From the NCBI RefSeq assembly GCF_002563715.1, contig NZ_PDJJ01000001.1:3038001-3102000 (forward strand): a DNA stretch of 64,000 nt, given 5' to 3'. This DNA is from Isoptericola jiangsuensis (GTDB lineage Bacteria; Actinomycetota; Actinomycetes; Actinomycetales; Cellulomonadaceae). The translations under genes and the position numbers were made by a program. How positions within the stretch are numbered: the stretch's first letter is position 1; each line of letters starts with the position of its first letter. The notes beneath the pieces are model-generated. The model worked only from the letters and a program-made list of their open reading frames with translations, searched no databases and had not been told where the DNA came from. Positions 18,342-49,243 of the stretch are shown one piece after another.

Positions 18342-19589
18342 ATGAGCAGCGCCGAAGCGGCCCGACCGACCCCCCTGCCCAACCGGGCGGTGTTGTTCCA
18401 CATCGGCCTGATGAAGACCGGGACGACAGGCCTGCAGAACGCCGCCACCGCACTCCGCCCCGAGCTGCTCGCCCAGGGGGTGCGCTACCCCGGGCGTTCC
18501 GTCAATCATCGCAGCGCCGTCAACGACTTCATGGGGCATTCCTGGGGCTGGGGCACCACACCCGTCGCAGGCGCCTGGGCCAAGCTCCGGCAGGAGATCG
18601 ACCGGGACACCGAGAACAAGATCTGGATCTGCCACGAGTTCGGTGCGAACGCCGACGACGCCACCGCGGCGCGGTGGCACGAAGAGCTCGGCGAGCGCGC
18701 GCACGTCGTCGTCACGCTGCGCGGCTACGGCTCCCTCCTGCCCTCGGTCTGGCAGCAGACCACCAAGGAGGGCGACCGCTGGCCCTTCGAGACCTGGCTC
18801 ACCGAGATGCTGTCGGACGAGCCGTCCGAGGACCTGCGACCCTTCACCGACCGCCACGACCAGGGCGCCGTCGTGACCCGCTGGGCGAAGGCGTTCGGGC
18901 CCGAGAACGTCACCGTCGTCGTCGTCGACAAGTCCACGCCGACCCTGCTGTTCGACGCCTTCGAGGCGATGCTTGGCCTCGAGCCCGGTCTGCTGGGCAC
19001 GGCAGAGCTCGACGCCAAGGCGTCGAACCGCGGCATGTCGGTCGAGGAGGCGGAGTTCCACCGCGTCCTCAACCTCAGGCTTCGCGACCAGCTCACGTGG
19101 CTCGAGTACTGCAAGTGGTTCCGCGACTCCGCCTCGACGTCCCTGCTGCGCCGTCGACGGCCCGGCCCTCACGACACGCGCCTCGTGCTGCCCCGGTGGG
19201 CGGCGGAACGCGCCGACGAGCGGGCCTACCGCTACGCCGAGCAGATCTCCGCCGCCGGCGTGCGGGTGGTCGGCGACCTCGAGTTGCTCACGGCCCCGGC
19301 ACCGTCCGTCGAGGACCCCGTGATGACCGCCGACGTGGTCCCCATCGACGCCGCGGTCGAGGCGCTGCTGGGCGTGATGCGCCAGGGTCGCCGCGACGAG
19401 GCCCGACTCGACGCCGCACGGACCGAGCTCGAGCAGGTGCGGGCAGACCTCACGCGCACCCGGGCCGAGCTGAAGAAGGCACGAAGCGGGCGGGAAGCGG
19501 CCTCGTCGCGCTCGCTCGACGAGGCGAGCGGTCGAGAGCTCGCGCACGAGCTGCGCGCCCGCGTGGGACGCCGACTTCACCGCGGCTGA
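18342..19589 (+). CDS. Sulfotransferase-like protein 1
   Basis: The 415-residue protein starts at ATG 18342 after GGAGGAG. Near the N-terminus HIGLMKTGTTGLQNA is a P-loop of the kind that binds the 5'-phosphate of PAPS in sulfotransferases (K, T and G conserved). VVVTLRGYGSLLPSVWQQT supplies the Arg/Ser region corresponding to the 3'-phosphate site, and VTVVVVDKST is a core strand. The last 60 residues are a charged probable coiled coil (ARTELEQVRADL onward). A close paralogue lies at 48008-49243. The sulfate-activation genes begin 1.1 kb away on the other strand, and wall-polymer genes flank it on both sides, so a sugar or polymer acceptor is likely. The acceptor is unknown. Confidence 0.72.
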   Translation: MSSAEAARPTPLPNRAVLFHIGLMKTGTTGLQNAATALRPELLAQGVRYPGRSVNHRSAVNDFMGHSWGWGTTPVAGAWAKLRQEIDRDTENKIWICHEFGANADDATAARWHEELGERAHVVVTLRGYGSLLPSVWQQTTKEGDRWPFETWLTEMLSDEPSEDLRPFTDRHDQGAVVTRWAKAFGPENVTVVVVDKSTPTLLFDAFEAMLGLEPGLLGTAELDAKASNRGMSVEEAEFHRVLNLRLRDQLTWLEYCKWFRDSASTSLLRRRRPGPHDTRLVLPRWAAERADERAYRYAEQISAAGVRVVGDLELLTAPAPSVEDPVMTADVVPIDAAVEALLGVMRQGRRDEARLDAARTELEQVRADLTRTRAELKKARSGREAASSRSLDEASGRELAHELRARVGRRLHRG

Positions 19590-19607
19590 CTCCAGGCGCC
19601 ACGAGAG

Positions 19608-20618
19608 CTAGCGGGGCGGAGCCGTGGCGTCGCGGACCGCAGGCGTCTTCTCCGGCTCGGGCTGCCCCTCGTTCACGTGCAGGTAGCTGCTCGAGATGTG
19701 ACCCACGTCGATCGCCCACACCCCGGCTCGGGCCAGCCGGCTCGCGAGGATGGTCCCCGCCGGGCCCAGCGCGATGAGGACGAGCTCGTCCGACGCGCGG
19801 GCGACGATCTCCTTCTCCAGGCGATCGATCTCCTCGAAGGCGTGCCGAGGAGCCGCCCAGAGGTGCTCCGCACCGGCGATGTTGTCGAAGAGGCCCGGGA
19901 CCAGGTCGAACCTCGACCCCTCGCCCGTCACGACCAGGACGTGCTCGCCGTCCCACACCTCCCGCCACAGCCGAACGGCGTCCTCGCCGAGCTCGCTGAA
20001 GCAGGCCGGACGCGACACGTGGCTGTTGCCGAACTGCTGGCCCTCGGGAACCATCCGCCGCACGTCCTCCCAGACGAGCTCCCAGACGGCGCTGTTGTGC
20101 GCCGTGCGGAAGCTCTGGGGCCATCCGAGGAGCAGGGCGTCGGGCGCAGGTGTGCTGAGGGTCTCCCGCAGCGCGGCACGGAGCTCCGCGCTGTTCCGCT
20201 GGAACCCGAGGTGGTAGAGCGGGTCGACCATCAGGCGGAACTCGCCGTCGCCGAACCGTGCGAAGCTGACTCGCTTGCGCGCCAGCAGCTCGAGAGTCTG
20301 GCGGAGGGTCATCTGCCGACGCGCGCTGAAGTCGAGGACGTCGCTCATCGTCGCCGCCGTCGACGACACGCGGAGCGTCCTGAGCTCCTTCCTGCTGGCC
20401 TCGACGTCGGCTCGAATCGTCCCGATCTCGCCGTTCAGACGATCCATGCGGGACGAGAGCGCGGTCGTCAGCTCGGCGACCTGCTTCTCCAGCTGTCCGG
20501 CGCGGCGTGCCGTCCGCCGGGAGGCGGCGAGCTGTTTCTCACCCACGGACCGGATGCGGCGCAGCTCCTTCAGCACGTCGCTCGCCACCCGTGCGCCGGG
20601 AAGTCGGAAAGTACCCAT
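19608..20618 (-). CDS. GT-D fold glycosyltransferase with N-terminal coiled coil
   Basis: The 336-residue protein has about 90 N-terminal residues of heptad-like charged sequence (GQLEKQVAELTTALSS, MDRLNGEIGTI) and then a GT-D domain (former DUF1792). FARFGDGEFRLM carries the Gly-Asp-Gly-Glu motif that replaces the DXD motif in this fold; GNSHVSRPACFSELG, DLVPGLFDNIAGAEHLW and LIALGPAGTILASRLARAG follow the family pattern. Known GT-D enzymes extend glycans on serine-rich adhesins or polysaccharides. Its stop faces the stop of the sulfotransferase-like gene 18 nt away. The ATG at 20618 is preceded by AAGG. The donor sugar is unknown; the coiled coil may tether it to another enzyme. Confidence 0.72.
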   Translation of the reverse strand: MGTFRLPGARVASDVLKELRRIRSVGEKQLAASRRTARRAGQLEKQVAELTTALSSRMDRLNGEIGTIRADVEASRKELRTLRVSSTAATMSDVLDFSARRQMTLRQTLELLARKRVSFARFGDGEFRLMVDPLYHLGFQRNSAELRAALRETLSTPAPDALLLGWPQSFRTAHNSAVWELVWEDVRRMVPEGQQFGNSHVSRPACFSELGEDAVRLWREVWDGEHVLVVTGEGSRFDLVPGLFDNIAGAEHLWAAPRHAFEEIDRLEKEIVARASDELVLIALGPAGTILASRLARAGVWAIDVGHISSSYLHVNEGQPEPEKTPAVRDATAPPR

Positions 20619-20672
20619 CGATCAACCTTCACTTCGGTGTGGTGCGGCGTGGACCGCACCGGGACATGCAGA

Positions 20673-20702
20673 AGGCCGGGCCGTCCGAGGACGGCCCGGC
20701 CT
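20673..20702 (-). terminator. Terminator of the cysQDN operon
   Basis: A perfect 12-bp stem (AGGCCGGGCCGT, 20673-20684, with 20691-20702) closes a 6-nt loop, 11 nt beyond the cysN stop. A second smaller hairpin lies at 20641-20660. Confidence 0.75.
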
Positions 20703-20713
20703 GGCCACGGCTG

Positions 20714-22024
20714 TCAGGCCGAGCGGGGCAGGCCGCCGACCATGCCGGCCGCGACCGTCTTGTTGGTCGCCTCGTCCACGAGGATGAACGAGCCGGTCTG
20801 ACGGTTCTGCGTGTACGGGTCGACGAACAGCGGGACCGTGACGCGGAGCTGGATGCGGCCGATCTCGTTGAGCCGGATCTCGGTCGCCTCCTCGTCGCGG
20901 TGCAGCGTGTTGACGTCGACGCGGTAGTTGATGTCCTTGACCATGGCCCGCGCCCACCGGGACGTGTGCTTGATCGCGTACTTCTTGCCCTTGACCAGCG
21001 GGGCGGACTCGTCCATCCAGCAGATCTGGGCGTCGATCTCCTGCAGCGCCGCCGGCTTGTTGTTCGGCCGGGCGATCATGTCGCCGCGCGAGATGTCGAT
21101 CTCGTCGGCGAGCCGCACGGTCACGGACATCGGGGGGTACGCCTCCTCGACGGGCCCGTCCGCGGTGTCGATCGACTCGATGGTCGTCTCGAGACCCGCG
21201 GGCAGCGCCACGACGCGGTCGCCCGCCTTCATGACGCCCGACGCCACGGTGCCCGCGTAGCCGCGGTAGTCGCGCGCGTCGTGGGACTGCGGGCGGATGA
21301 CGTACTGGACCGGGAAGCGGACGTCCACCAGGTTGCGGTCCGAGGCCACGTGCAGGCGCTCGAGGTGGCTCAGCAGCGGCGAGCCGTCGTACCACGGCGT
21401 GTTCTCGGACCGGTTGACGACGTTGTCGCCCACCAGCGCCGAGATCGGGATGAACGTCAGGTCCGGGACGCGCAGGCGCGAGGCGAACTCCGTGAACTCG
21501 CGGCGGATGTTCTCGAAGACCTCCTCGGAGTAGTCCACGAGGTCCATCTTGTTGACGCAGACCACGATGTGCGGGACGCCCAGCAGCGTCGCGAGGAACG
21601 TGTGCCGCCGCGACTGCTCGATGACGCCCTTGCGCGCGTCCACGAGGATGAGCGCGACGTCGGCCGTCGAGGCACCGGTCACCATGTTGCGGGTGTACTG
21701 GATGTGCCCCGGGGTGTCCGCGATGATGAACTTGCGCTTCGGCGTCGTGAAGTAGCGGTACGCGACGTCGATCGTGATGCCCTGCTCGCGCTCGGCGCGC
21801 AGGCCGTCCGTGAGGAGCGCCAGGTCGGTGTAGTCGTTCCCGCGGTCCTGGGAGACCTTCTCGACGGAGTCGAGCTGGTCCTCGAAGATCGTCTTGGAGT
21901 CGAACAGCAGACGCCCGATGAGGGTCGACTTGCCGTCGTCGACGGAGCCGGCGGTCGCGAACCGCAGGAGGTCCACCGAGCCGTCGGTGAGGGCCTCGGC
22001 GGTGGTGTCGGTCGTGGTGGTCAT
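20714..22024 (-). CDS. cysN: Sulfate adenylyltransferase subunit 1 (GTPase)
   Basis: This 436-residue GTPase couples GTP hydrolysis to ATP sulfurylase, which makes APS from sulfate. G1 is GSVDDGKST, G3 is DTPGHIQY and G4 is NKMD, followed by the EF-Tu-like beta domains (VIRPQSHDARDYRGYAGTV, ISRGDMIARPNNKPA). There is no C-terminal APS-kinase domain, so this is CysN rather than a CysNC fusion; the kinase is encoded separately at 24966. ATG 22024 follows the cysD stop within 4 nt. The operon cysQ-cysD-cysN ends here at a strong hairpin. Confidence 0.95.
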   Translation of the reverse strand: MTTTTDTTAEALTDGSVDLLRFATAGSVDDGKSTLIGRLLFDSKTIFEDQLDSVEKVSQDRGNDYTDLALLTDGLRAEREQGITIDVAYRYFTTPKRKFIIADTPGHIQYTRNMVTGASTADVALILVDARKGVIEQSRRHTFLATLLGVPHIVVCVNKMDLVDYSEEVFENIRREFTEFASRLRVPDLTFIPISALVGDNVVNRSENTPWYDGSPLLSHLERLHVASDRNLVDVRFPVQYVIRPQSHDARDYRGYAGTVASGVMKAGDRVVALPAGLETTIESIDTADGPVEEAYPPMSVTVRLADEIDISRGDMIARPNNKPAALQEIDAQICWMDESAPLVKGKKYAIKHTSRWARAMVKDINYRVDVNTLHRDEEATEIRLNEIGRIQLRVTVPLFVDPYTQNRQTGSFILVDEATNKTVAAGMVGGLPRSA

Positions 22025-22027
22025 GGC

Positions 22028-22930
22028 TTAGAAGTAGCCCTCTCGCTTCCGGTCCTCCATGGCGGCCTCGCTCACCTTGTCGTCGCCACGCGTGGCGCCG
22101 CGCTCGGTGATGCGCACCGCCGCGATCTCCTCGACGATCTCGTGCAGCGTCGCGGCCTCTGACGCGACCGCGGCCGTGAGGTTCGCGTCGCCGACGGTGC
22201 GGTAGCGCACCGAACGGACCTCGGACGTCTCACCGTCCTTGAGGGGGGTGAACTCGTTCACGGCGAACAGCATGCCGCCGCGGTCCACGACCTCGCGCTC
22301 CTGGGCGAGGTAGAGGTCGGGCAGGTCGATGTCCTCGGCCGCGATGTACGACCAGATGTCCAGCTCGGTCCAGTTGGACAGCGGGAACACGCGGATCGAC
22401 TCGCCCTGGTGGACCCGGCCGTTGTACAGGCTCCAGATCTCGGGGCGCTGGTTCTTCGGGTCCCACTGGCCGAAGTCGTCGCGGAAGGAGAACACGCGCT
22501 CCTTGGCGCGGGCCTTCTCCTCGTCGCGGCGGCCTCCGCCGAACGCGGCGTCGAAGCCGTTCTTCTCCATCGCCTCGAGCAGGACGGGCGTCTGGATGCG
22601 GTTGCGCGACCCGTTCGGCTCCTCCTGGACGAGACCGCGGTCGATCGCGTCCGGCACGGACGCGACGACCAGCTGGATGCCGAGACGCTCGACCCAGCGG
22701 TCACGGCAGTCGAGCACGGTCTGGAAGTTCAGGCCGGTGTCGACGTGCATGATCGGGAACGGGATCCGCGCAGGTGCGAACGCCTTGGCCGCGAGGTGCA
22801 GCATGACGATCGAGTCCTTGCCGCCGGAGAACAGCAGCACGGGCCGCTGCATCTCGGCGACGACCTCACGGATGATGTGGATGCTCTCCGCCTCGAGGCT
22901 GCGGAGCTGGCTCAGGACGTGGGACGTCAC
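22028..22930 (-). CDS. cysD: Sulfate adenylyltransferase subunit 2
   Basis: The 300-residue catalytic subunit forms APS from ATP and sulfate together with CysN. Its PP-loop is LLFSGGKDSIVMLHL, followed by MHVDTGLNF, GGGRRDEEKARAKERVFSFRD and WTELDIWSYI, all standard for CysD. The GTG start at 22930 has GGAAGGTG upstream and overlaps the cysQ stop by 4 nt. The C-terminus (TRGDDKVSEAAMEDRKREGYF region) is also characteristic. CysD enzymes belong either to assimilation or to PAPS supply for sulfotransferases; here the neighbours favour the second role. Confidence 0.95.
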   Translation of the reverse strand: MTSHVLSQLRSLEAESIHIIREVVAEMQRPVLLFSGGKDSIVMLHLAAKAFAPARIPFPIMHVDTGLNFQTVLDCRDRWVERLGIQLVVASVPDAIDRGLVQEEPNGSRNRIQTPVLLEAMEKNGFDAAFGGGRRDEEKARAKERVFSFRDDFGQWDPKNQRPEIWSLYNGRVHQGESIRVFPLSNWTELDIWSYIAAEDIDLPDLYLAQEREVVDRGGMLFAVNEFTPLKDGETSEVRSVRYRTVGDANLTAAVASEAATLHEIVEEIAAVRITERGATRGDDKVSEAAMEDRKREGYF

Positions 22931-23823
22931 GACTGGGCACCTTCCTTGATCTCCACGCCGACCTCGCTGAGCGCCGCGCGCAGGTGCGCGGCCAGGGCCG
23001 GGTGGCAGACGAACAGATCGGGGAGCCAGGGATCCTGGCGGTTGTACTCGAGCGGCGTGCCGTCGAGGCGCGTGCACTCGTGGCCGGCGGCGAGGGCGAC
23101 CGCGACGGGCGCGGCCGAGTCCCACTCGTACTGGCCGCCGCCGTGGACGTACGCGTCGACGGTGCCGTCGACGACGGACACCACCTTGACGCCGGCGGAG
23201 CCCATCGGGACGAGCTCGACGTCGTCGCGCTCGGCGAGCGCGGCGACGAAGGCGGGCGGGCGGGAACGGCTCGCCGCGATCCGCAGCGGACGGTCGCCGG
23301 CCAGCACCGCGGCGACCGCGGCGTCCAGGTCGGCGGCCGACGACGGCTCGTGCGTCGTGTGAACAAGGTCACGGGCCGGCAGCGCGACCGCGCCGGCGGC
23401 GAGACCGCCGGGGCCGCCGGTCGCGTCGTCGGTCCCGCGGACCCACAGCGCCACGTGGACGGCGAAGTCGTCGCGCCAGGGGTCGGTCGGCGCGCCGTGA
23501 CCGGCGCGCTCGGCGAACTCGCGGGTGCCGTCGAGGGGATCGATGATCCAGACCCGGTCGGCGCCCGTGCGCGCGGCGTCGTCCTTGGCCTCCTCGGAGA
23601 GCACCGCGTCACCCGGTCGGGCCTGGGCGACGGCAGCCGCCAGCCAGGCCTGGGCCGCGGCGTCACCGGCGTCCTTGAGGGTCTTGGCGTCGAACGCGCC
23701 GCCGGCGGCGTCGACGTCGGAACGGAGACCGAGCAGCACCTCACCCGCGCCCCGTGCGAGGGCGGTCGCCAGCGGGCCGTCCCCCAGGGCGGGGTCCGGG
23801 AATGCCGGTTGTGGCGTGGACAT
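22927..23823 (-). CDS. cysQ: 3'(2'),5'-bisphosphate nucleotidase
   Basis: This 298-residue inositol-monophosphatase-fold enzyme hydrolyses PAP (and often PAPS) to AMP or APS, removing the product that inhibits sulfotransferases. Metal-binding motifs are visible: LSEEAKDD, the WIIDPLDGTREF signature and the late YEWDSAAPVAVALAAG. ATG 23823 is preceded by GAGGAG. An open frame continues upstream without a ribosome site. It is the first gene of cysQ-cysD-cysN. CysQ next to PAPS-forming genes and a locus full of sulfotransferase-like genes suits a PAPS/PAP cycle. Confidence 0.9.
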   Translation of the reverse strand: MSTPQPAFPDPALGDGPLATALARGAGEVLLGLRSDVDAAGGAFDAKTLKDAGDAAAQAWLAAAVAQARPGDAVLSEEAKDDAARTGADRVWIIDPLDGTREFAERAGHGAPTDPWRDDFAVHVALWVRGTDDATGGPGGLAAGAVALPARDLVHTTHEPSSAADLDAAVAAVLAGDRPLRIAASRSRPPAFVAALAERDDVELVPMGSAGVKVVSVVDGTVDAYVHGGGQYEWDSAAPVAVALAAGHECTRLDGTPLEYNRQDPWLPDLFVCHPALAAHLRAALSEVGVEIKEGAQS

Positions 23824-23880
23824 CGAGCTCCTCAAAGTCTCGGGCGTCGGCACAGGGATCTCCTGGAACCCGGCCGAGGT

Positions 23881-23886
23881 TACCAT
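23881..23886 (+). promoter_or_regulatory. TACCAT -10 box of the leader ORF
   Basis: TACCAT lies exactly 7 nt before an ATG at 23894, which predicts a leaderless transcript. The same bases on the minus strand read GGTAACCT, a possible -10 for cysQ, so the two sulfate operons may share overlapping promoters. Confidence 0.45.
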
Positions 23887-23893
23887 TCCGACC

Positions 23894-24013
23894 ATGCGTG
23901 CCTGCGTGCTGAACCGCCGTCCGAGACCGGGCGCCGAGCCCTCCCGGGGCACCCTCCGCGGACCGGGTCGCGCCGCCGGCGCGAACCCCGCGGCGACCGG
24001 TGCCGACGCATGA
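23894..24013 (+). CDS. Candidate leaderless leader peptide (39 aa) before the sulfate permease gene
   Basis: An ATG 7 nt after TACCAT opens a 39-codon frame beginning [13 protein letters not shown]. Its TGA overlaps the permease ATG as ATGA. The permease itself has no ribosome site, so its translation probably depends on ribosomes finishing this small frame. Cysteine-containing leaderless ORFs that sense cysteine are known upstream of sulfur genes in mycobacteria. This one has a single Cys codon at position 4 rather than a run, so regulation by cysteine is only a hypothesis. The rest is Arg/Pro/Ala-rich with no known motif. It could also be an untranslated leader. Confidence 0.4.
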
Positions 24014-24969
24014 TCGACATCGACCCGGGACTCGTCCTCGGCGGCCTCGCCGTCGGCTTCGTCGTGGGGCTGACGGGCATGGGCGGCGGCGCCCTCATGA
24101 CGCCGATGCTCGTCTTCGTGTTCCGCGTCGACCCGCTCGTGGCGGTGTCGAGCGACATCGTCGCGAGCCTGTTCATGAAGCCCGCGGGCGCGATCGTGCA
24201 CCTGCGCCGCCGCACGGTGAACCTGCAGCTCGTCCTGTGGCTGTGCCTCGGGTCCGTCCCCGCCGCGTTCTGCGGCGTGTTCCTCATCCGGGCGCTGCCG
24301 TTCGGGGACTCGCTCGAGGAGGGCCTCCTCGTCGTCCTCGGCTGCGCCCTGCTGCTGGCGTCCGCCGGGCTCGTGCTGCGCGCCGTCCTCGGCGCGCTCC
24401 AGCACCGCCGCGCCCTCGGGGAGGGACCGGCGGTGCCGACCGCTCCCGACGTCGTCGTGCGCAAGGTGCCCACGCTCCTGCTCGGCGCGGTGGCCGGGCT
24501 GCTCGTCGGCATGACGTCGGTCGGCTCCGGCTCGATCGTCATCGTCGTGCTCCTGCTCCTGTACCCCGCGCTCAAGGCCTCGCAGCTCGTCGGCACGGAC
24601 CTGGTCCAGGCCGTGCCGCTGGTCGCGGCCGCCTCGCTCGGGCACCTGCTGTACGGCGAGTTCTCCCTCGCCCTGACGACGTCCCTGCTCATCGGTGCGA
24701 TCCCCGGCGCCTGGTTCGGCGCCCAGGTGTCGAGCCGCGCACCCGGCGGCCTGATCCGCCGCGCGCTGGCCGTCCTCCTGCTCGCCTCCGGTCTCAAGCT
24801 GCTCGGCGCGTCGGTGGAGGTCGTCGTGGGCGCCACGCTCGCCGCGCTGGTCGGCGGCAACATCGCCTGGGTGCTCGTGCGCGACCGCCTCAAGAAGCTC
24901 CCGCCCCGGGCGCCGGCCGCGGACGCGGCCGTGCCCTCCACCCCGACGAAGGACCCCGACACCCCGTGA
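24010..24969 (+). CDS. TauE/SafE-family membrane permease (putative sulfate transporter)
   Basis: The 319-residue protein has about eight membrane helices in two related halves. Each half begins with the family motif: [20 protein letters not shown] near the N-terminus and [17 protein letters not shown] in the second half. TauE/SafE proteins carry sulfite, sulfonates or other sulfur anions. Here the gene overlaps cysC by 4 nt (GTGA) and diverges from cysQDN, so uptake of sulfate for activation is the most economical inference. The start at 24010 has no Shine-Dalgarno sequence and overlaps the stop of a small upstream frame. The cytoplasmic tail is Ala/Pro-rich. Confidence 0.8.
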
Positions 24970-26177
24970 ACCTGCCTGCGACCACCCACGTCCTGACCGA
25001 CGACGAGCTCGACGCGCTCGAGCTCCACCTCGGCGGCGGCTCCCCCGCCCTGGAGACGGGCGCCGAGGCGAGCCCCGTGACCCTCACGGACGCCGAGAAC
25101 ACCCCGCTGGCCGTCCTGGACGGCGCCGTCGCGACGCCGGTCAAGCCGATCGCGCGCGCGGCCGGGCCGCACTGGGACGCCGCGCTGCGGCGCCCGGCCC
25201 GCGACGTCGCCGCCGACGTCCGCCGCGCCGTCGGCCCCGACGGCGACGTCCTCGCGGTCGTCGTCGACGAGGCACCGACGACGGCCGAGCTGGCGGCGCT
25301 GCCCGGGCTCGTCGCCGGTGCCGCGGCCGTGCTCGTCCTCGCGCCGGTGGCCCGCCGCTCCCCCGCGCCCGGCGCCCTCGGCGGTCCCGGGCTGACCCGG
25401 GTCGCGCTGGCCGTGCGCGACGCCGCCCGGGCGGCCGGCGCCCCGCGCACCGACGTCGTCGTGGTGCCCTGGGCCCACGGGCCGCTGGCCGATGCCGTCG
25501 CCTGCGCGCACGGCGCCGACCGGGCGGTCCGCCTGGCGGACTCGCGTCCCGCGACCGTCCAGGACGAGGTGGACGCCCTCGCCACCGTGCGGAGCCGCGC
25601 CGTCGAGGCCCTCTACCCGCCGGCGGTCGCCCGCGAGGTCGAGGACGCCGCGACGCACGCCCGCCGCACCGGCACCGTCGTGTTCTTCACCGGGCTGTCC
25701 GGCTCCGGCAAGTCGACCGTCGCCCGGGCGCTGGCCGCCGAGCTCGACGACGAGGGCGTCCGCACGACCCTGCTCGACGGCGACGAGGTGCGCCAGCACC
25801 TGTCCAAGGGCCTCGGGTTCGACAAGGAGTCGCGTGAGCTCAACGTCGAGCGCATCGGCTACGTCGCCTCGCTCGTCGCGCAGCACGGCGGCGTGGCCGT
25901 CGCGGCCCCCATCGCGCCGTTCGCCTCGGGGCGCGCCCGCGTGCGCGCGCTGGCCGAGGCCGCCGGGCGCTTCGTGCTGGTGCACGTCTCCACGCCGCTG
26001 GAGGTCTGCGAGGCCCGCGACCGCAAGGGCTTCTACGCGAAGGCACGCGCCGGGGAGATCGCCGAGTTCACCGGCATCTCCTCCCCCTACGAGACCCCCG
26101 ACGACGCCGACCTCGTCATCGACACCTCGCAGGTGTCCGTGGAGGAGGCCGTCGCACTGGTTCGCGCCGTGGTGTAG
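24966..26177 (+). CDS. cysC: Adenylylsulfate kinase with N-terminal ATP-sulfurylase-like domain
   Basis: This 403-residue protein phosphorylates APS to PAPS, the sulfate donor. The C-terminal kinase begins near residue 235: Walker [30 protein letters not shown], the [12 protein letters not shown] block and the [16 protein letters not shown] substrate loop. The first 200 residues ([15 protein letters not shown], then an Ala-rich alpha/beta region with [10 protein letters not shown]) resemble the PUA-like and catalytic parts of single-chain ATP sulfurylase but lack a clear HXGH-type active site, so this part may be degenerate or regulatory. GTG 24966 overlaps the permease stop. A kinase separate from CysN, together with no reductase nearby, favours PAPS use in sulfation. 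Confidence 0.9.
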
Positions 26178-26186
26178 CCGCCGCGC

Positions 26187-26230
26187 ACGGGTGTGACGCG
26201 CCGGTCCTCGGACCGGCGCGTCGCACCCGT
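26187..26230. terminator. Bidirectional terminator between cysC and tagH
   Basis: Two 21-nt arms (26187-26207 and 26210-26230) pair with one wobble around a 2-nt loop. They lie between convergent genes, and the last base touches the tagH stop codon. Confidence 0.85.
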
Positions 26231-27243
26231 CAGGCCGAGCGGCGAGCGACGTCCTTGCGGGCTGCCTTCCCGCGACCCGCCCCCGCGCGCTGGGGCTTGT
26301 CGGTGCCGCGTACCCGCCGCTGGCCACCGGCACCACCGCCGGTGCGCGCCTCACGGTTCGCTCGCACGAACTGCTTGTAGGCGCTCGCGACCTCGTCCAC
26401 GTGACCGTCCATGACGAGTCGGCCCTGGTGCATCCACAGCACGCGGGTGCACATCGCCTCGATCGTCGAGATCGAGTGGCTCACGAGGAACACCGTGCCC
26501 GCCTGCCGACGCACCTCGTCGATCCGCGCCTTCGACCGCGCCTTGAAGGCTGCGTCGCCGGTGGCCAGCGCCTCGTCGACCATGAGGATGTCCGGGATGG
26601 CGGCAGAACTGATGGCGAACCGCAGGCGCGCGGCCATGCCTGACGAGTAGGTCTTCATCGGCAGGTCGACGAACTCGCCGATGTCGGCGAACTCCACGAC
26701 CTCGTCGAACTTGTCGTCGATCTCCTTCGGGGTCATACCGAGCGCGAGACCACCGATCTCGATGTTCTTCGCGCCGGTCATCTGGGGCATCAGTGCCGCG
26801 TTGACACCGAGCAGCGCGGGCTCTCCGTCCACCCACACCGAGCCCTCGTGCGGCGGGATGAGCCCCGTGATCGCCCGGAGCAGGGTCGACTTGCCGGAAC
26901 CGTTGATGCCGACGATGCCGATGGACTCGCCGTGCCGCGCCACGAAGGACACTCCGCGGACGGCGTGCACCTCGCTCACGGCCCCGACGTGCTGGCGGCC
27001 GGCGCCGAGGATCCGCTGGACGAGCTTGCGCCGCGGCGGCTTGACGTCCTGAACATGCACGCCGGACTGCTTCGCGCTGTCCCGCTGCTTGCCGCCGAAG
27101 ACGCGGAAGACGACGTGCAGGTCGTCGACGACCAGGCAGGGGTCGCCGAGCGGGATCTCGACCGCGTGCTGACCGCGGTCGTCGTCCTCGTCCTCCATGT
27201 CGAAGTCCAGGTGCGCGTCGGCCTCGACCACGTCGTCAGTCAC
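26230..27243 (-). CDS. tagH: Teichoic-acid/polysaccharide ABC exporter ATPase
   Basis: The 337-residue ATPase drives export of a wall polymer across the membrane. Walker A is GINGSGKST, signature YSSGMAARLRFA, Walker B ILMVDEALATGD and switch LVSHSIST; the block GLIPPHEGSVWVDGEPALLGV is typical of the TagH/Wzt group. A 30-residue acidic leader and a basic Gly/Arg-rich tail flank the core, and there is no carbohydrate-binding Wzt domain, which resembles TagH more than Wzt. GTG 27243 follows GAGGAGAGG and overlaps the permease stop by 8 nt. The exported substrate is presumably one of the polymers made by the surrounding genes. Confidence 0.88.
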   Translation of the reverse strand: MTDDVVEADAHLDFDMEDEDDDRGQHAVEIPLGDPCLVVDDLHVVFRVFGGKQRDSAKQSGVHVQDVKPPRRKLVQRILGAGRQHVGAVSEVHAVRGVSFVARHGESIGIVGINGSGKSTLLRAITGLIPPHEGSVWVDGEPALLGVNAALMPQMTGAKNIEIGGLALGMTPKEIDDKFDEVVEFADIGEFVDLPMKTYSSGMAARLRFAISSAAIPDILMVDEALATGDAAFKARSKARIDEVRRQAGTVFLVSHSISTIEAMCTRVLWMHQGRLVMDGHVDEVASAYKQFVRANREARTGGGAGGQRRVRGTDKPQRAGAGRGKAARKDVARRSA

Positions 27244-28222
27244 GTCCGTACCTCTCCTCGCCACGCCAGAACACGATGAAGCCGACGACGAAGAAGACGA
27301 TCGCCCACACGACGCCCAGCACCCACATGAGGGGGTCCTGGGCGAAAGCCTCTTCCGCCATGAGGGACGACCGCCCCAGGTACAGGTACACGGCGACCGG
27401 CTGGTACTCCAGCACGGGTCCGAGCCATGCCTGGACGGTCTGGGGCAGGTCGTCCACGTAACGCACCACCGGGAAGATGACACCGGAGGCGTACATCGTG
27501 AGACGCAGGACGAAGCTGATCACGTTGTCCAGGTCCGGCGTGATAGCGACGAGCCGCGCCATCACGAAGGCCACACCCATGTTGAAGACCCAGAGCAGGG
27601 CGACGGCCGGGATCAGCAGCAGCCACTCCCAGGTCACCGGTTCCGGTGCGTTGCTCCCGACGTAGCCGGAGGCGAGCACGATCCCGCACATGACCACGAT
27701 CGCGGGGACGAGCGTCGTCAGGTGCGACAGCACGTTGGACAGCGGGAGCACCGCACGAGGGAAGTGCATCGACCGGATGAGGTTGACGCTCTTGCCCGTG
27801 AGGGCCCTGGCCCCACCGTGCACGCTCTGCTCGAGGAACCGGAAGAGGAACACCCCGATGACGATGAACGCGATGGTGTTGTCGACGCCTCGGCTCACGT
27901 CCAGGAGCAGCCCGAAGATGAGGACGTAGACGATCGCGTTGAGCACCGGGTTCAGGACGGCCCAGAGCTGTCCCAGGTAGGTGTTCTGGTTGCGCGCGTA
28001 GGCGGCCGAGGTGCCGAGGACACGGATGAACGGGCCGCGTGCCACGACCTCCTTCACGTACGTCCACAGCGGAGGGCGCACGCCCATGCGCGTGAGGCCG
28101 TAGCGCTCGGCGATCGCGATGCGCTCGGCGGAAGTGGTGGCGGGGACGACGGGGTCCGGCGGCCGGGGCGGCGCAGGCCGCTGGGCGCCGGGGGTGTCTC
28201 CCGCGGTGGTCTGGGTGGTCAC
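27236..28222 (-). CDS. tagG: Teichoic-acid/polysaccharide ABC exporter permease
   Basis: This 328-residue permease of the ABC-2 (TagG/Wzm) type has a 100-residue cytoplasmic N-terminus, including WTYVKEVVARGPFIRVLG, then six membrane helices. Typical segments are YLGQLWAVLNPVLNAIVYVLIFG, GVFLFRFLEQSV and LPLSNVLSHLTTLVPAIVV. The last loop (PDLDNVISFVLRLTMYASGVIFP) and a Trp-rich end match the family. GTG 28222 is selected because the conserved body follows; its ribosome site is weak. A TAGGAT box lies about 44 nt upstream. It is co-translated with tagH. Confidence 0.88.
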   Translation of the reverse strand: MTTQTTAGDTPGAQRPAPPRPPDPVVPATTSAERIAIAERYGLTRMGVRPPLWTYVKEVVARGPFIRVLGTSAAYARNQNTYLGQLWAVLNPVLNAIVYVLIFGLLLDVSRGVDNTIAFIVIGVFLFRFLEQSVHGGARALTGKSVNLIRSMHFPRAVLPLSNVLSHLTTLVPAIVVMCGIVLASGYVGSNAPEPVTWEWLLLIPAVALLWVFNMGVAFVMARLVAITPDLDNVISFVLRLTMYASGVIFPVVRYVDDLPQTVQAWLGPVLEYQPVAVYLYLGRSSLMAEEAFAQDPLMWVLGVVWAIVFFVVGFIVFWRGEERYGRD

Positions 28223-28265
28223 GTCGTGTTCGAACCTGTCCTTCGAAGGGGGACCCGACCGCTCG

Positions 28266-29615: not shown

Positions 29616-29619
29616 GCCC

Positions 29620-39032: not shown

Positions 39033-39228
39033 GGCGGCGAGACTAGGAGGCCTGTGCGGCGAGATCGGCCACTTCTCGATAACTGTCACCGAACATTGCG
39101 TGGACCGTCGATGAACATTTGTCGACCTCGCCATCGAACAGCAGAATCCGGCCACGCGGACGTCATTTGCGCAAAGGTCCGTGCATTAACGTCTCGACCG
39201 AGCCGATCCCTATCCGCAAGGAGCCACC
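39033..39228. promoter_or_regulatory. AT-rich divergent promoter region
   Basis: This 196-bp gap is visibly poorer in GC than its surroundings (GATAACTGTCACCG, GAACATTTGTCG, CATTTGCGCAAAGG, GCATTAACG). TAGTCT at 39045-39040 serves the nonulosonate gene. For the plus-strand gene the ribosome site AAGGAG is clear but the promoter is not. Repeated GAACATT (39098-39123 area) may be a regulator site. Confidence 0.4.
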
Positions 39229-40110: not shown

Positions 40111-41066
40111 GCCCCCTGCCCACCCCGCGCCGGCTGGCCGGCCGCACCGCCCGCGCGCTCGGCCTGCGCCGGCCCGACCGCCGGGAGCGGCGGGTCGTGC
40201 TGCACCTGGGATCGCAGAAGACCGGTACGACCGCCGTGCAGGCGTGGTGCCGCGACCACGCCGCCGACCTGGCCCGCGGCGGGGTCGCCGCGCGCACCCG
40301 GCAGCCCGACATCCGCGAGGCGCTCGGCGGGTGGTACGAGACGTCGCGCGACGGCGCGGACGATCTCCTGGCGGCCTACCTCGCGGCGCCGTGGCGCGAC
40401 CGGCAGGTGCGGGGCGTCCTGTACTCGTGCGAGTCGAACGTCGGGGCCGCGTTCCGCGACGACTCCCGGGACCTCTACCCGCGGCTCGGCCCCAACCTCG
40501 AGGCGATCGAGCGCGCCACCGCGGGCAGCTCGCGGCACGTGCAGTTCACGGTGCGCAGCTACGGCCCGTTCCTGGAGTCCGCCTACCAGCAGCAGCTCAA
40601 GCACGGCCACCCCTCGTCGTTCGACGCGCTCGCCGACCGGGTCGCCCCGACGCTGTCCTGGCGGCCGGTCGTGACCCGGCTGGTCGAGGTGTTCGGCGCC
40701 GAGAACGTCACCGTCTACGACTACGACCGGGCGCGCGAGGCCGACGTCCCGCTGGTGCGCCAGGTCCTGCTCGACGCGCTGCACCGGCTCGGCGCGGGCG
40801 ACCTCGACGTCGTCGTCGACGACGGTCACCGCCCCAACACGCGGTACACGCAGCGGATGGCGGACCTCAGCCTCGCCACCCTTCCCCTGCTGGAGGGCCG
40901 CGAGGAGCGCGAGGCCCTGCACCGGTTCTCCGTGGCGACCCTCGGCCGCCGGCCCGCCCCCGACGACGCGCCGGCCCGGTTCCTGGCCGACGACGCCGCC
41001 GCGGGGCTGGCGGACCGCTACGCGGCCGACGTCGCGTGGCTATCCCGGCTGGTGGAGGTCAGGTGA
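40107..41066 (+). CDS. Sulfotransferase-like protein 2
   Basis: The 319-residue protein has a basic N-terminus and then VVLHLGSQKTGTTAVQAW, the PAPS 5'-phosphate loop. HVQFTVRSYGPFLESAYQQQ supplies the Arg and Ser expected near the 3'-phosphate, and ENVTVYDYDRAREADVPLV is the following core strand and loop. It is translated with its degenerate paralogue just upstream. Its last 49 nt overlap the end of the convergent sulfotransferase-like gene. A glycan acceptor is likely from context, but none can be named. Confidence 0.7.
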   Translation: MSPLPTPRRLAGRTARALGLRRPDRRERRVVLHLGSQKTGTTAVQAWCRDHAADLARGGVAARTRQPDIREALGGWYETSRDGADDLLAAYLAAPWRDRQVRGVLYSCESNVGAAFRDDSRDLYPRLGPNLEAIERATAGSSRHVQFTVRSYGPFLESAYQQQLKHGHPSSFDALADRVAPTLSWRPVVTRLVEVFGAENVTVYDYDRAREADVPLVRQVLLDALHRLGAGDLDVVVDDGHRPNTRYTQRMADLSLATLPLLEGREEREALHRFSVATLGRRPAPDDAPARFLADDAAAGLADRYAADVAWLSRLVEVR

Positions 41067-41791
41067 GCCCCGTAGCCGAACACCTCGGTGAGCAGCCGCT
41101 CGCGGGCCGCGACCCGCTCCCACGCGTCGGCGGGGACGGCGAACCCGGCGTCCGCGTCCAGGCGGGAGCTCGTGTTGAGGCGGGCCTGCGCGGCCAGGGC
41201 CGCGAGGGCCGCGTCCCGGGACGGCCGCCACGCCAGGTCGTCGCGCCGCACCAGCGCGGCGAGGTCCTGCGTCATCGACTCGTTGCGCAGCACCACGTCG
41301 ACGACGGAGAGCTCCCGGTAGCCGGCGACGAGCTCCTCGGACGACCCGACGCGGCGCAGCCAGCGCAGCGCGCGCGGCACCGTCAGCCGGGCCACGCGGA
41401 ACGACAGCAGCCCGGTGTGCGGCGCCACCCCGGTGCGGGCGTACGAGCGCGGGTTGAGCGCGTCGGCCGAGGCCGGGTCCAGCACGACGTCGAGCCAGCG
41501 GTCGAACCCGGCGGCCGTCCCGTCGTACAGGTGGCCCAGCCCCGCGTCACGCATCGTGCCGCTGAGCCCTCCCTTACCCTGACACCCGTAGGAGTACAGC
41601 GACAGGTACGAGTCGAGCGGGTCACGGACGGAGACGACGTGGAGACGACCTGCAGGGGGACGGTCCTCGACCTCGACGTGCTTGCGGAACGACACCTCGT
41701 CGTCGTCGAGGAAGTCGCGCAGGAACTGCGACACGTACGTGGAACCGGACTTCTCGACGTCGAGGTAGGCGAGAGAATGAAAGGCGTGCAC
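41018..41791 (-). CDS. Sulfotransferase-like protein 3
   Basis: This 257-residue protein is shorter and belongs to a different subgroup from the others. LAYLDVEKSGSTYVSQFLRD is the PAPS loop and LHVVSVRDPLDSYLSLYSYG is the classic 3'-phosphate site with Arg, Asp and Ser. GTG 41791 has GGAG 5 nt upstream and is preferred over a TTG 15 nt further out. The gene diverges from manA across an 82-bp region that contains a 24-bp palindrome. Its end overlaps the end of sulfotransferase-like gene 2 by 49 nt on the opposite strand. Confidence 0.7.
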   Translation of the reverse strand: MHAFHSLAYLDVEKSGSTYVSQFLRDFLDDDEVSFRKHVEVEDRPPAGRLHVVSVRDPLDSYLSLYSYGCQGKGGLSGTMRDAGLGHLYDGTAAGFDRWLDVVLDPASADALNPRSYARTGVAPHTGLLSFRVARLTVPRALRWLRRVGSSEELVAGYRELSVVDVVLRNESMTQDLAALVRRDDLAWRPSRDAALAALAAQARLNTSSRLDADAGFAVPADAWERVAARERLLTEVFGYGAHLTSTSRDSHATSAA

Positions 41792-41815
41792 AGGTGCTCC
41801 GAACAATCACGGTGG

Positions 41816-41839: not shown

Positions 41840-41873
41840 GGCGAATCACGCCAGCATCGGGAAGGTCGATGAC

Positions 41874-43109: not shown

Positions 43110-43151
43110 CCCCGGCGGGACGCCCGCACGGACGGCCCGCCAGGACCGGCG

Positions 43152-44303
<1,152 letters not shown>

Positions 44304-46172: not shown

Positions 46173-46173
46173 C

Positions 46174-47997
46174 CTAGTGGCCGCCGGTCGGGCCGAAGGA
46201 CGCCCGCCAGGTCTCCGGGTCCACCAGGCCGGGCGCGGCGGCCCGCCAGGTGCGGGCCAGCGACCGCCAGCGCAGCGCGAGGCGCAGGTGCGCCCCGACC
46301 GTCGCGGCGGCCAGGCGCCAGAACGTGCGGGCGTCGCGGCGCAGCCACACCCCGGTGGTCCCGGCGGCGTCGAGCACGAGCACGGAGTCGTGGGCGGGCA
46401 CCTGCCACCACCCGGCGGCGTCGCGGGTCAGCACGGCCGCCGGGGTGCGCCGGGCGGCGGCGGGCACGGGCCGCAGGGTGCGCAGCACGCCGCGGGCCAC
46501 GAACCCGGCCAGCGCGGCCGCGCCCCCCGGCTTGGCGGACCCGTCGGTCGCGGGCAGCGGTGCGCCCGGACGCACGACCGCGTCGAACACGGGGTCGCCG
46601 GCGGTGTGCCGCACCGTCTCCGGGTGGCGGGCGCCCACGCCGCGTACGGACCCCACCAGCGTGCCGAGCTCGCGGTGCAGGCGGCCCGGACCGCCGAGCA
46701 CCTCGCGCAGCGCCCGCACGTGCAGGTCCACCGGGTAGTAGCGCATGGCCAGGAGGAGCTTGAGATCGGTGGCGAGCAGCGCCGCGGGCAGCAGGTGCGG
46801 GCCGTCGGCGTGCAGCAGCGCCGTGATCACGCGGTTGCGGACGTGCAGGTACGCCTGCCACTCCACGGAGTCGTCCTTCTCGGTCCACGCGACGTGCCAC
46901 AGGCAGAACCCGGGCAGCGACACCGTGGGCACGCCCGCGGCGGCGGCGCGCAGCCCGAACTCGGCGTCGTCCCACTTGAGGAACAGCGGCAGGCTGAGGC
47001 CGACCTCGCGCAGCACGGCCGCGGGGATCAGGCACATCCACCAGCCGTTGAACTCGGACTCGCCGCGACGGTGCAGCCACGGCGTGGCCGTCAGCCCGCC
47101 CGCCAGGTCGTGCCACTGCTGGTCCATCGCGGGCGGGCCCCAGTTGAAGGTGCGCCGGTGCACCACCTCGGCCCAGGAGTTCAGCACCGTCGGGCGCGCC
47201 AGGTCGAGCATGTGCCCCCCGACCACCACCGGGTCGACGGCCGCCCGGTGCAGCCGCACGGCCCGCAGCATCGACTCCGGCTCCACCTCGACGTCGTCGT
47301 CGCAGATGAGCACGGCGTCCGCCCCCGCGGCGAGCGTGTCCGCCATGCCGCGGGAGAACCCGCCCGAGCCGCCCAGGTTGGCCTGCTCGACGACGCGCAG
47401 CCGGTCCCCGAGCGCGGCGGCGACCGCAGCGAAGCCCTCGTGCTCCCGGACCGTGCGGCCGCCCTGGTCGACCACCTGCACGGTGACGTCCGACGCCGCG
47501 AGCTCCGCCGACCCGGCGAGCACGGCCAGCGTCGCCACGCAGTACTCCGGCTTGTCCATCGTCGTGATCGACACCACCACGGTGCCCTCGCGCCGGGGCG
47601 CCACGTCGACGTCCCAGTCGCCGCCCGTGACGACGACGTCGTCGTGCGCCTCCACGCGGGCCCACAACCAGCCGCCGTCCCGCATCCCGGTGAGGTCCGC
47701 GTCGACCGGCTCGCCGAGCGGGGCGCTGCCCACCTCGACCGTGCTGCCGTGGACGCCGGAGCGCAGCACCCGCACGGTCGCGCCACCCGTCCCGGTCACG
47801 GTCAGCCGGGCGCGGGTCGCGCCGGTCCAGCGCGCCCAGTAGGCGGCCGGGAAGCCGTTGAGGTACGTCCCGAGGCCCTGCTCGGTGCCCGCGGGCAGGT
47901 CCAGGCGCCCCTCGGTGAGCACCCCGGCGCCGTCCTCGACGCACAGGGCACGGCGCTCGGACCGGCCGGACAGGATCAGACGTTGGGCGAGGTGCAC
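46174..47997 (-). CDS. glfT2: Galactofuranosyltransferase, GlfT2 type
   Basis: The 607-residue protein has the three-part build of mycobacterial GlfT2 (637 residues): an N-terminal beta sandwich with GTYLNGFPAAYWARWTG, a GT-A core and a helical C-terminus. Catalytic residues are in ILICDDDVEVEPESML (DXD), FLKWDDAEFGLRA (catalytic Asp pair) and FCLWHVAWTEKDDS (metal His). GFSRGMADTL and EFNGWWMCLIP are also conserved. GlfT2 polymerises UDP-galactofuranose into a chain with alternating linkages. GTG 47997 lies 7 nt after TAGGCT, whose first bases are the stop codon of the upstream gene, so it may have its own leaderless promoter. Confidence 0.88.
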   Translation of the reverse strand: MHLAQRLILSGRSERRALCVEDGAGVLTEGRLDLPAGTEQGLGTYLNGFPAAYWARWTGATRARLTVTGTGGATVRVLRSGVHGSTVEVGSAPLGEPVDADLTGMRDGGWLWARVEAHDDVVVTGGDWDVDVAPRREGTVVVSITTMDKPEYCVATLAVLAGSAELAASDVTVQVVDQGGRTVREHEGFAAVAAALGDRLRVVEQANLGGSGGFSRGMADTLAAGADAVLICDDDVEVEPESMLRAVRLHRAAVDPVVVGGHMLDLARPTVLNSWAEVVHRRTFNWGPPAMDQQWHDLAGGLTATPWLHRRGESEFNGWWMCLIPAAVLREVGLSLPLFLKWDDAEFGLRAAAAGVPTVSLPGFCLWHVAWTEKDDSVEWQAYLHVRNRVITALLHADGPHLLPAALLATDLKLLLAMRYYPVDLHVRALREVLGGPGRLHRELGTLVGSVRGVGARHPETVRHTAGDPVFDAVVRPGAPLPATDGSAKPGGAAALAGFVARGVLRTLRPVPAAARRTPAAVLTRDAAGWWQVPAHDSVLVLDAAGTTGVWLRRDARTFWRLAAATVGAHLRLALRWRSLARTWRAAAPGLVDPETWRASFGPTGGH

Positions 47998-48007
47998 GCG
48001 CGAGAGC

Positions 48008-49243
48008 CTACGCGGAGTTGTCCTCCGTCGAGGTCGCCCCGTGACGTCCGACCAGGCCACCGGCCCGCGACCGCAACTTGCGGGTCAGCGCGGCGACCAG
48101 GTCCTGGGTCGACGCACCGTCCAGCATGTCCCGGGTGTCGACGGGCTCGACGTGCGGGACACCGTGACGCCCTGCGCGCTCGACGCCGAGGCGGCCCTGG
48201 GCGATCGCCCCGAGCACGGCCCTCGCGGCCGCGTCGACGGGAACCGTCGGGGAGTCGAGCACGGGACGCTCCTCGTGCGGCACCGGCCGGTCGAGGAGGT
48301 CGAGGTCGCCGACGACACGCGCCCCCGACGACGAGATCTGCTCCACGAAGCGCGCCGAGCGCTTCGCGGCCTTCTCCGCGGCCCAGGTCGGCAGCACGAT
48401 CCGCGTGTCGTGCTCACCGGGCGAACGCTCGCCGAGCATGTGCCCGGCGACACCGAGCCGCAGCCACCACCGGTACTCGGTCCACGACAGCTGCCCGCGC
48501 AGCTCGTGGTTGACGGCGCGGAGCAGCTCGGCCTCCTCCACGCTCATCGACCGGTTCGAGGCGTAGCCGTCGAGCTCTGCCTGCGACAGCATCCCGCGGT
48601 CGAGGCCGAGCATCGACTCGAACGCGTCGAAGAGCAGCTCGGGGGTGGACTTGTCCACGACGACGACCGTCACCTTGTCGGGTCCGAAGACGGACGCCCA
48701 CCGCTGCACGATGGCGCCCTGGTCGAGCCGCTCCTGCGCGCGCCGCGTGCTCTCCAGCTTCGGGGCGTCGGACAGGACGCCCTTGAGCCAGCTCTCGAAC
48801 GGCCTGGTCCGACCGCCCTTCATCGTCTGCTGCCAAGCCGAGGGGAGGACGGCGGCGTAGTTACGCAGCGTCACGACGACGTGCGTCCGGTCGCCGAGCT
48901 CGTCGCGGAACCGACGAGCGAGGTCGTCGTCGCACTCGGACACGAACTCGTGCCCGACCCACACGCGGCGAGACTCCTCCGCCTCGATCTCGGCCTTGAG
49001 GTCGCGCCAGGCCTCGGGCTGGGGCGTGCTGTTCCAGCCCCAGCCGCGCCCCATGACGGCGGTCAGGGCGGTGCGGTGGTTGAGCCCGTTCCCCGGGTAG
49101 CGCACGCCGGCGGCGAGAAGGGGCTCACGCAGGGAGGACGCGGCGTTCTGGAGGCCGGTGGTCCCCGTCTTCATCAGCCCGATATGGAGCAGCCGTGCCC
49201 GCGGTGGCAGCAGCAGTCCGTCGGTGGAGGCGTTCGCGGACAT
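48008..49243 (-). CDS. Sulfotransferase-like protein 4
   Basis: The 411-residue protein is a close paralogue of the one at 18342-19589: both have HIGLMKTGTTGLQNAA, GVRYPG, THVVVTLRNY or VVVTLRGY, LPSAWQQT, VTVVVVDKSTP, LLFDAFESMLGL, SNRSMSVEEAE and DTRIVLPTWAAEKA. The PAPS loop Lys and Thr residues are intact. ATG 49243 follows GGAG at 6-7 nt, and TATCGT 36 nt upstream may be its -10. It heads the galactofuran operon, so galactofuran or its linker is a candidate acceptor. The C-terminal 50 residues are basic and lack the coiled coil of its paralogue. Confidence 0.72.
   Translation of the reverse strand: MSANASTDGLLLPPRARLLHIGLMKTGTTGLQNAASSLREPLLAAGVRYPGNGLNHRTALTAVMGRGWGWNSTPQPEAWRDLKAEIEAEESRRVWVGHEFVSECDDDLARRFRDELGDRTHVVVTLRNYAAVLPSAWQQTMKGGRTRPFESWLKGVLSDAPKLESTRRAQERLDQGAIVQRWASVFGPDKVTVVVVDKSTPELLFDAFESMLGLDRGMLSQAELDGYASNRSMSVEEAELLRAVNHELRGQLSWTEYRWWLRLGVAGHMLGERSPGEHDTRIVLPTWAAEKAAKRSARFVEQISSSGARVVGDLDLLDRPVPHEERPVLDSPTVPVDAAARAVLGAIAQGRLGVERAGRHGVPHVEPVDTRDMLDGASTQDLVAALTRKLRSRAGGLVGRHGATSTEDNSA

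Follow-up and report, generated by a model that had tools for sequence, protein, structure and literature searches.

A locus of Isoptericola jiangsuensis in which genes for sulfate activation and five sulfotransferase-like proteins lie among wall-polymer genes is, in our judgement, likely to make and sulfate cell-wall glycopolymers. It is contained in a 64,000-nucleotide stretch of DNA (the window; bases 3038001-3102000 of the 4.04-Mb single-contig genome), and coordinates below are window positions, position 1 being the first window base. We computed the gene content of the locus, the presence of a single CysD, the adenosine 5'-phosphosulfate (APS) reductase motifs of CysH, a conserved linkage to genes for the sugar 3-deoxy-D-glycero-D-galacto-nonulosonic acid (Kdn) and the existence of two CysD lineages. 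An earlier note on this DNA had reported cysQ-cysD-cysN, a TauE permease gene and cysC (together 20714-26177) as well as the five sulfotransferase-like genes, and all of them were found where it had placed them. The wall-polymer surroundings were also confirmed, with Glyphos_transf (TagF-type) genes, a CTP_transf/HAD/NeuB fusion, Glf, GlfT2 and two POLYST-like proteins; LicD, GT-D and ABC-export genes are further neighbours of the sulfur genes.

The genes cysN (20714-22024), cysD (22028-22930) and cysQ (22927-23823) are located on the minus strand, and the TauE gene (24010-24969) and cysC (24966-26177) on the plus strand. CysN and CysD, the large and small subunits of ATP sulfurylase, scored over the cut-offs of TIGR02034 (E=3e-174) and TIGR02039 (E=2.5e-132). 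CysC, the APS kinase, matched PF01583 (E=1e-57) and passed TIGR00455, with an apsK match (E=2.8e-58) across residues 224-398. Its N-terminal extension of ~220 amino acids (24966-25630) had no Pfam match and, judged by eye only, might be a remnant ATP-sulfurylase domain. The CysQ-like 3'-phosphoadenosine 5'-phosphate (PAP) phosphatase matched TIGR01331 (E=1.2e-22) but, at 81 bits, fell short of its curated cut-off of 229. The TauE/SafE permease (PF01925, E=3e-40) presumably takes up sulfate.

We named the five sulfotransferase-like proteins after their positions. ST18 (18342-19589, plus strand; HIGLMKTGTT, with KTGTT at residue 25) is 57% identical over query residues 10-355 to ST48 (48008-49243, minus strand), and as a query it also found ST40 (E=6e-6). 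ST40 (40107-41066, plus strand; HLGSQKTGTT, with KTGTT at residue 38) is represented in our alignment A1. ST41 (41018-41806, minus strand) carries DVEKSGST ... VRDPLDSYLSLYSY, and PF03567 was matched weakly by four of the five members of its alignment. A KTGTT or KSGST loop, which we take to be the 5'-phosphosulfate loop, starts at residue 19-38 in four of the five proteins and is missing from ST39 (39229-40110, plus strand). The four proteins with this loop also have, further along, an arginine-serine stretch (VRDPLDSYLS in ST41, TLRNYAAVLPS in ST48 and TVRSYGPFLES in ST40) that resembles what we take to be the 3'-phosphate site. In the window genome every sulfotransferase match over cut-off (E 1e-3 for our own queries) fell within the locus, and all four A1 matches and the ST41 match lay inside the window. 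Genome searches with PF13469 and PF03567 gave no matches, and PF00685 gave a single match, under cut-off and outside the locus.

ST39 is a degenerate member, as the earlier note had held; it is without motifs for 3'-phosphoadenosine 5'-phosphosulfate (PAPS), yet it is kept in relatives, where orthologues are 51-73% identical and retain the full frame. The ratio of nonsynonymous to synonymous substitutions (dN/dS), calculated for the same four genomes and six pairs each, was 0.42-0.68 for ST39 and 0.34-0.71 for ST40 (YN00, with NG86 as fall-back; the values are rough, the genes being very GC-rich). Because the full frame persists in relatives and its dN/dS is near that of ST40, ST39 appears to be a pseudoenzyme that is being maintained rather than a gene in decay. 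Two more distant relatives also have sulfotransferase-like frames whose KTGTT loop is degraded, next to intact ones (L050:12327-14249 and L051:9930-12395); judging from these frames, an inactive sulfotransferase-like partner may recur.

The earlier note had proposed a comparison of gene co-occurrence across related genomes, and in 150 genomes of the family (numbered with a G) cysC was found to track sulfotransferases. Strong cysC (PF01583, E <1e-40) was present in 49 of the 150, the 43 genomes with only weaker PF01583 matches being counted as without cysC. Sulfotransferases were found in 33 genomes with the A1 profile, in 27 with PF00685, in 33 with PF13469 and in 12 with PF03567. A1 was built from window proteins and from proteins of Isoptericola, Promicromonospora and Myceligenerans loci, and its matches in these genera are therefore partly by construction; the three Pfam families are independent of it. 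At E 1e-3, 46 of the 49 strong-cysC genomes carried a sulfotransferase, compared with 2 of the 101 others; with sub-cut-off matches dropped, the counts were 45/49 and 1/101, for which the Fisher value of 2.1e-32 overstates the evidence, the 150 genomes being related. A separate search with ST41, left out of the latter count, gave ten strong matches, all in cysC genomes, and three weak ones. In genus group g21, the three genomes with a sulfotransferase were the three with strong cysC.

Sulfotransferases of established families also lie close to cysC. The distance from cysC to a PF03567 match over cut-off was measured in 11 genomes and was 4.4-9.2 kb in 10 of them (in the twelfth genome with a match, G149, it is on another contig); in G116 the PF03567 gene is flanked by cysN and the ST18 orthologue. 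PF00685 genes occur within the block in Myceligenerans indicum and Isoptericola halalbus. Of the 13 listed genomes of genus group g7, seven correspond by contig position to the seven named Promicromonospora loci; a match was found in 3 of the 13 with the ST18 query and in 7 with the A1 profile; in the remaining g7 genomes the block's sulfotransferase was not identified by either.

The sulfate genes are linked to genes for a nonulosonate. A fused CMP-nonulosonate cytidylyltransferase/HAD phosphatase/NeuB-type synthase (36927 to about 39032-39155, minus strand; PF02348, HAD, and PF03102 with E=1.5e-82) also matched the KDN-9-phosphatase model NF058599, under cut-off (E=5.7e-26), and the sugar that it makes is presumed to be Kdn. 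Strong Kdn synthase (E <1e-120) was found in 48 genomes. Eight genomes with a NeuB-family match of 37-41% identity (E 9.5e-57 to 1.6e-45) were left out (G065, G008, G113, G109, G118, G140, G108 and G018); G108 among them has a strong cysC, on another contig. Strong cysC and strong Kdn synthase occurred together in 33 genomes, on one contig in 30, and within 20 kb in 29 of these 30. All 13 listed g7 genomes have cysC less than 10 kb from the Kdn synthase. Among the 80 named Kdn loci listed, a tblastn search (1e-30) with the window CysC found cysC in the flank of 12 of 19 Promicromonosporaceae loci and of none of the 61 others, 52 of which span more than 20 kb.

Where the flank is long enough, the common order is Kdn genes, family 2 glycosyltransferase, DUF6716, ABC exporter, CysC, TauE, CysQ, CysD and CysN, some members going undetected in single loci, and this order recurs in Isoptericola, Promicromonospora and Myceligenerans. 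In the window the corresponding genes encode a family 2 glycosyltransferase (33423-34502, minus strand; PF13641, E=2.8e-18), a putative DUF6716 glycosyltransferase of the conserved Kdn-export block (32139-33368, plus strand; PF20471, E=2.5e-108), and the ATPase (26230-27243, minus strand; PF00005, E=9e-20) and membrane protein (27236-28222, minus strand; PF01061, E=8.7e-5, under cut-off) of an ATP-binding cassette (ABC) exporter, which recurs beside cysC and is assigned to the wall-polymer type by position only. Upstream of DUF6716 lies a protein without Pfam match (31138-32142, plus strand) that starts VSALVESPLQLLCVVEAHAAG; proteins with similar beginnings adjoin DUF6716 in the Promicromonospora and Myceligenerans blocks.

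The sulfotransferase-like genes take part in this linkage. The ST39-ST40-ST41 triad was found beside the Kdn synthase in 5 of 10 named Isoptericola loci, among the matches listed, and in G072 and G110 GlfT2 has ST18-type genes next to it. In the window, ST48 and GlfT2 share a strand, and ST48 ends 10 bp before GlfT2. A 21-kb block of Promicromonospora sp. AC04 contains Kdn synthase, a KTGTT protein, CysC, TauE, CysQ and the start of CysD, together with three PF04230 (pyruvyltransferase) matches, one of them under cut-off, and a protein with GT8 and CST-I matches. Its predicted functions fit the wall polymer of Promicromonospora citrea described below, which contains Kdn, pyruvate and sulfate. 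PF04230 had no match among the window open reading frames that were scanned, which were a part of the total.

These neighbours bear on the question of what is sulfated. It is unlikely, in our view, that the sulfotransferases act on a capsule, an exopolysaccharide, a lipid or a small molecule and not on a wall-anchored polymer. Such targets have precedents in the putative sulfated exopolysaccharide cluster of Actinoplanes missouriensis, which has an APS-kinase-family gene adjacent (accessible text of PMC13390465), and in the mycobacterial sulfotransferase Stf0, which acts on a glycolipid (accessible text of PMC11625862). However, in Isoptericola the sulfotransferase-like genes are surrounded by genes of Kdn, TagF, GlfT2 and ABC-export type, the starts of two genes for LytR-CpsA-Psr wall ligases are only 1.7 and 3.4 kb outside the window, beyond its end, and a sulfated wall polymer is known in P. 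citrea.

The earlier note had further concluded that the sulfate genes serve sulfation rather than cysteine synthesis. It was correct that the window holds no CysH or sulfite reductase gene, the sole PF01507 match there being CysD and PF01077 having no match. In the whole genome, PF01507 had two matches, the window CysD and a CysH at 1.03 Mb; the second CysD for which the note had suggested searching was not found, and the window copy is the only one detected with this family. At 1.03 Mb, ~2 Mb from the window, CysH is followed in the gene row by a sulfite-reductase-family protein (CysI) and a CysG-like protein, and no cysDN adjoins them. A third PF01077 match is located at 2.87 Mb, and no Sat-type ATP sulfurylase was found in the genome. 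With a single CysD, no Sat-type enzyme found and a distant cysH-cysI lacking cysDN, CysDN must serve both sulfation and cysteine synthesis in this genome. We therefore rejected the idea that CysDN is dedicated to sulfation here.

CysH contains a CC pair and a CxxC motif, which we take as the mark of APS reductases. It scored 212 bits with the APS reductase model TIGR02055 (cut-off 235) versus 160 bits with the PAPS reductase model TIGR02057 (cut-off 254), so that neither specific model was passed, and it did pass NF002537 and TIGR00434, both named phosphoadenylyl-sulfate reductase. M. tuberculosis provides a precedent, reduction there starting from APS and PAPS serving sulfation (PMC3141025, as far as its accessible text goes). 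If CysH reduces APS in the same way, CysC would have no role in cysteine synthesis, and we think that CysC and its product PAPS are probably not needed for it. As the CysH motifs, the co-occurrence of cysC with sulfotransferases and the Kdn linkage suggest, the earlier interpretation probably holds for CysC, for CysQ and for the sulfotransferase-like proteins; for CysDN it fails. The note had also named a sole CysDN with CysH elsewhere, together with wall polymers free of sulfate, as speaking against wall sulfation. This gene arrangement was found, and the sulfation idea survives it provided that CysH reduces APS.

A tree of CysD (36 rows, 35 distinct) separated two lineages. A branch with 100/100 support divides the rows. 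The 15 beside cysH are on one side; the other, which includes the window CysD, holds the 19 rows beside cysC or a sulfotransferase, together with the unassigned G001 and G033, the last of which has a long branch that makes its place unsure. Both kinds of CysD are present in G010, G060, G121, G126 and G144, and relatives with a separate cysI-H-D-N operon keep a second set with cysC. G121 has its second CysD clustered with cysQ, cysN, cysC and three sulfotransferase-like genes, at a distance of 0.44 Mb from the cysI-H-D-N operon. G001 and G033 (97% and 99% complete) have one PF01507 match each, a CysD on the cysC-linked side, and CysH was not found in either with this family; in G033 (L165/L166), the CysQ, CysD, CysN, CysC, TauE and sulfotransferase genes lie on one contig. 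A third PF01507 match is present in G116. The tree, which cannot separate gain from loss, is most simply read as showing two CysDN sets, an assimilatory and a sulfation-linked one, with only the sulfation-linked set kept in the window genome.

It seems to us highly improbable that the sulfur genes are an ordinary assimilation set present here by chance and that the KTGTT proteins do something else. The double duty of the sole CysDN and the names of the models passed by CysH would agree with such a set, but the APS-reductase motifs of CysH, the 45/49 against 1/101 distribution, the block order shared by three genera and the second, cysC-linked set kept by relatives with a complete assimilation operon would not. 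Chance placement as the main account was set aside on the Kdn linkage, the CysD tree and the co-occurrence.

The sulfotransferase-like proteins were also compared with known families and folds. All five are under every Pfam and NCBIfam cut-off, the best weak matches being PF03567 for ST41 (E=0.011) and PF17784 for ST48 (E=0.16-0.19). Profile searches of the PDB with alignments A1 and A2 returned no sulfotransferase, and single-sequence searches with ST48 and ST40 gave nothing over threshold. The earlier note had proposed structure prediction, and two proteins were modelled. For ST48 (predicted local distance difference test score, pLDDT, 75; predicted template modelling score, pTM, 0.76), a Foldseek search of the PDB returned sulfotransferases as the top four matches, 3rnl (E=3.2e-5), 8ccy and 9f6z (both 1.5e-3) and 4gbm (2.9e-3), two of which are human heparan sulfate N-deacetylase/N-sulfotransferase 1. 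Only 3rnl had E <1e-3, unrelated ATPases followed from 3.5e-3, and TM-scores were low (0.31-0.40 by query length, 0.21-0.56 by target). The model of ST41 was too poor to use (pLDDT 50). That the KTGTT proteins are P-loop proteins other than sulfotransferases, as the absence of a curated family match and the ATPases and kinases in the Foldseek list from 3.5e-3 would allow, is the least probable of the alternatives, given that the four top ST48 matches are sulfotransferases, that the proteins follow cysC across genomes and that relatives carry sulfotransferases over the PF00685 and PF03567 cut-offs within this block or close to it.

Several observations, in addition to the double role of CysDN, the CysH models and the modest family and structural matches, weigh against wall sulfation. 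G010, G132 and G141 carry cysC and no sulfotransferase was found in them by our searches; G024 has only a sub-cut-off match. Conversely, strong cysC is absent from G066, which has a sulfotransferase over cut-off, and from G123, which has a sub-cut-off match, and the weak ST41 matches (E 5e-4 to 9e-4) include two genomes without strong cysC (G013 and G036). The cysC of G010 is 1.5 Mb from its Kdn synthase. In G117 and G122 the ST18-type genes are away from the Kdn-cysC block, although other KTGTT genes are near it. Promicromonospora genomes have several PF13469 genes elsewhere, and PAPS therefore has other uses there. P. citrea itself is not among the 80 named Kdn loci listed.

Taken together, we still favour sulfation of wall glycopolymers, and for the enzyme activities, acceptor sugars, transport direction and wall attachment we infer the following scheme. 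TauE would import sulfate, CysDN would convert it to APS and CysC would convert APS to PAPS. The KTGTT-type proteins would then move sulfate onto wall-polymer intermediates in the cytoplasm, and CysQ would clear the resulting PAP. APS from the shared CysDN would also supply the distant CysH and CysI for cysteine. Since ST39, ST40 and ST41 lie beside the Kdn synthase and ST48 beside GlfT2, a Kdn-containing polymer (teichulosonic acid), leaving through the adjacent ABC exporter, is the likeliest acceptor, with a galactofuran polymer, on which ST48 may act, as a second possibility. GlfT2 (46174-47997, minus strand; PF19320, E=5e-24; PF17994, E=9e-19) is predicted to be a galactofuranosyltransferase, and Glf (43152-44291, minus strand; PF03275, E=1.5e-83) a UDP-galactopyranose mutase. 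A more elaborate version, which we put forward tentatively and consider doubtful, is that two polymers are sulfated (the Kdn polymer by ST40, ST39 and ST41, the galactofuran by ST48 with GlfT2), that these proteins form a distinct polymer-sulfotransferase family with ST39 as a dead partner, and that a wall-sulfation ATP sulfurylase displaced the assimilatory one, cysteine synthesis now depending on this locus.

Some further features of the window were noted. A POLYST-like transferase is encoded at 34492-35943 (minus strand; PF07388, E=5e-18), and the Glyphos_transf match at 16839 was slightly under cut-off. At 10201-11580 (minus strand), an integrase-core frame (rve) adjoins a separate HTH_38 frame within the wall cluster, and the two look like an interrupted transposase, presumably of the IS30 type. 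The longest LicD frame includes a tRNA-Ser (GCT) gene (13012-13089, minus strand) at its upstream end, and the LicD gene therefore probably starts further in.

The locus names candidate wall-sulfation genes and makes the question testable. The presence of cysC and KTGTT-type genes near a Kdn synthase could serve as a marker to predict strains with sulfated walls, and the locus offers a case in which primary metabolism seems to have come to rely, for one step, on genes that decorate the cell surface. The chemistry of a sulfated Kdn wall polymer in this family is already known: according to the accessible part of a review, the wall of P. citrea contains a Kdn-teichulosonic acid that includes both 7,9-pyruvylated Kdn and glucose 3-sulfate (PMC6801904). 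Moreover, the genome of Pontimonas salivibrio has led to a proposal of wall sulfation (PMC6106888, accessible text). The earlier note knew of no described actinobacterial system of this kind, a view that does not hold for the chemistry in the light of these two reports. What is new here is the gene assignment and the evolutionary pattern of CysDN; a second sulfated polymer is hinted at as well. In the literature searched, outside which most subscription papers fall, we found no gene assignment for a sulfated wall polymer; nor did that literature yield wall chemistry for Isoptericola, and the available part of PMC13274773 contains nothing on sulfate.

Our findings indicate likenesses to and differences from several known systems, each described here as far as the accessible text of its source goes. 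In A. missouriensis, wps-1 likewise has two predicted sulfotransferase genes and an adjacent gene of the sulfate adenylyltransferase/APS-kinase family, but it is a Wzx/Wzy cluster for a putatively sulfated exopolysaccharide involved in sporangium formation (PMC13390465). Streptomyces coelicolor SCO4873-SCO4882 are also genes for a phosphate-free Kdn wall polymer (PMC13011467), and the structure given for that polymer names no sulfate (PMC7831098). P. salivibrio is another actinobacterium with PAPS genes and sulfotransferases for which a role in wall sulfation was proposed, but PAPS reductase and sulfite reductase were not detected there, in contrast to the CysH and CysI of Isoptericola, and the text at hand mentions no Kdn link or demonstrated sulfated component (PMC6106888). 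M. tuberculosis (CysDNC, CysQ and Stf0-3) has a scheme that Isoptericola would share, with APS reduction, PAPS for sulfotransferases and the removal of PAP by CysQ; its CysN and CysC are fused, whereas they are separate in Isoptericola (PMC3141025). Unlike those of M. tuberculosis, the sulfotransferase-like proteins of Isoptericola are without a curated family match and are encoded among wall-polymer genes. For P. citrea the polymer is known and a gene assignment was not found in the literature searched, whereas the Isoptericola locus is known from its genes alone. Promicromonospora and Isoptericola both belong to the Promicromonosporaceae, and in Promicromonospora, too, Kdn synthase and cysC occur in one block.

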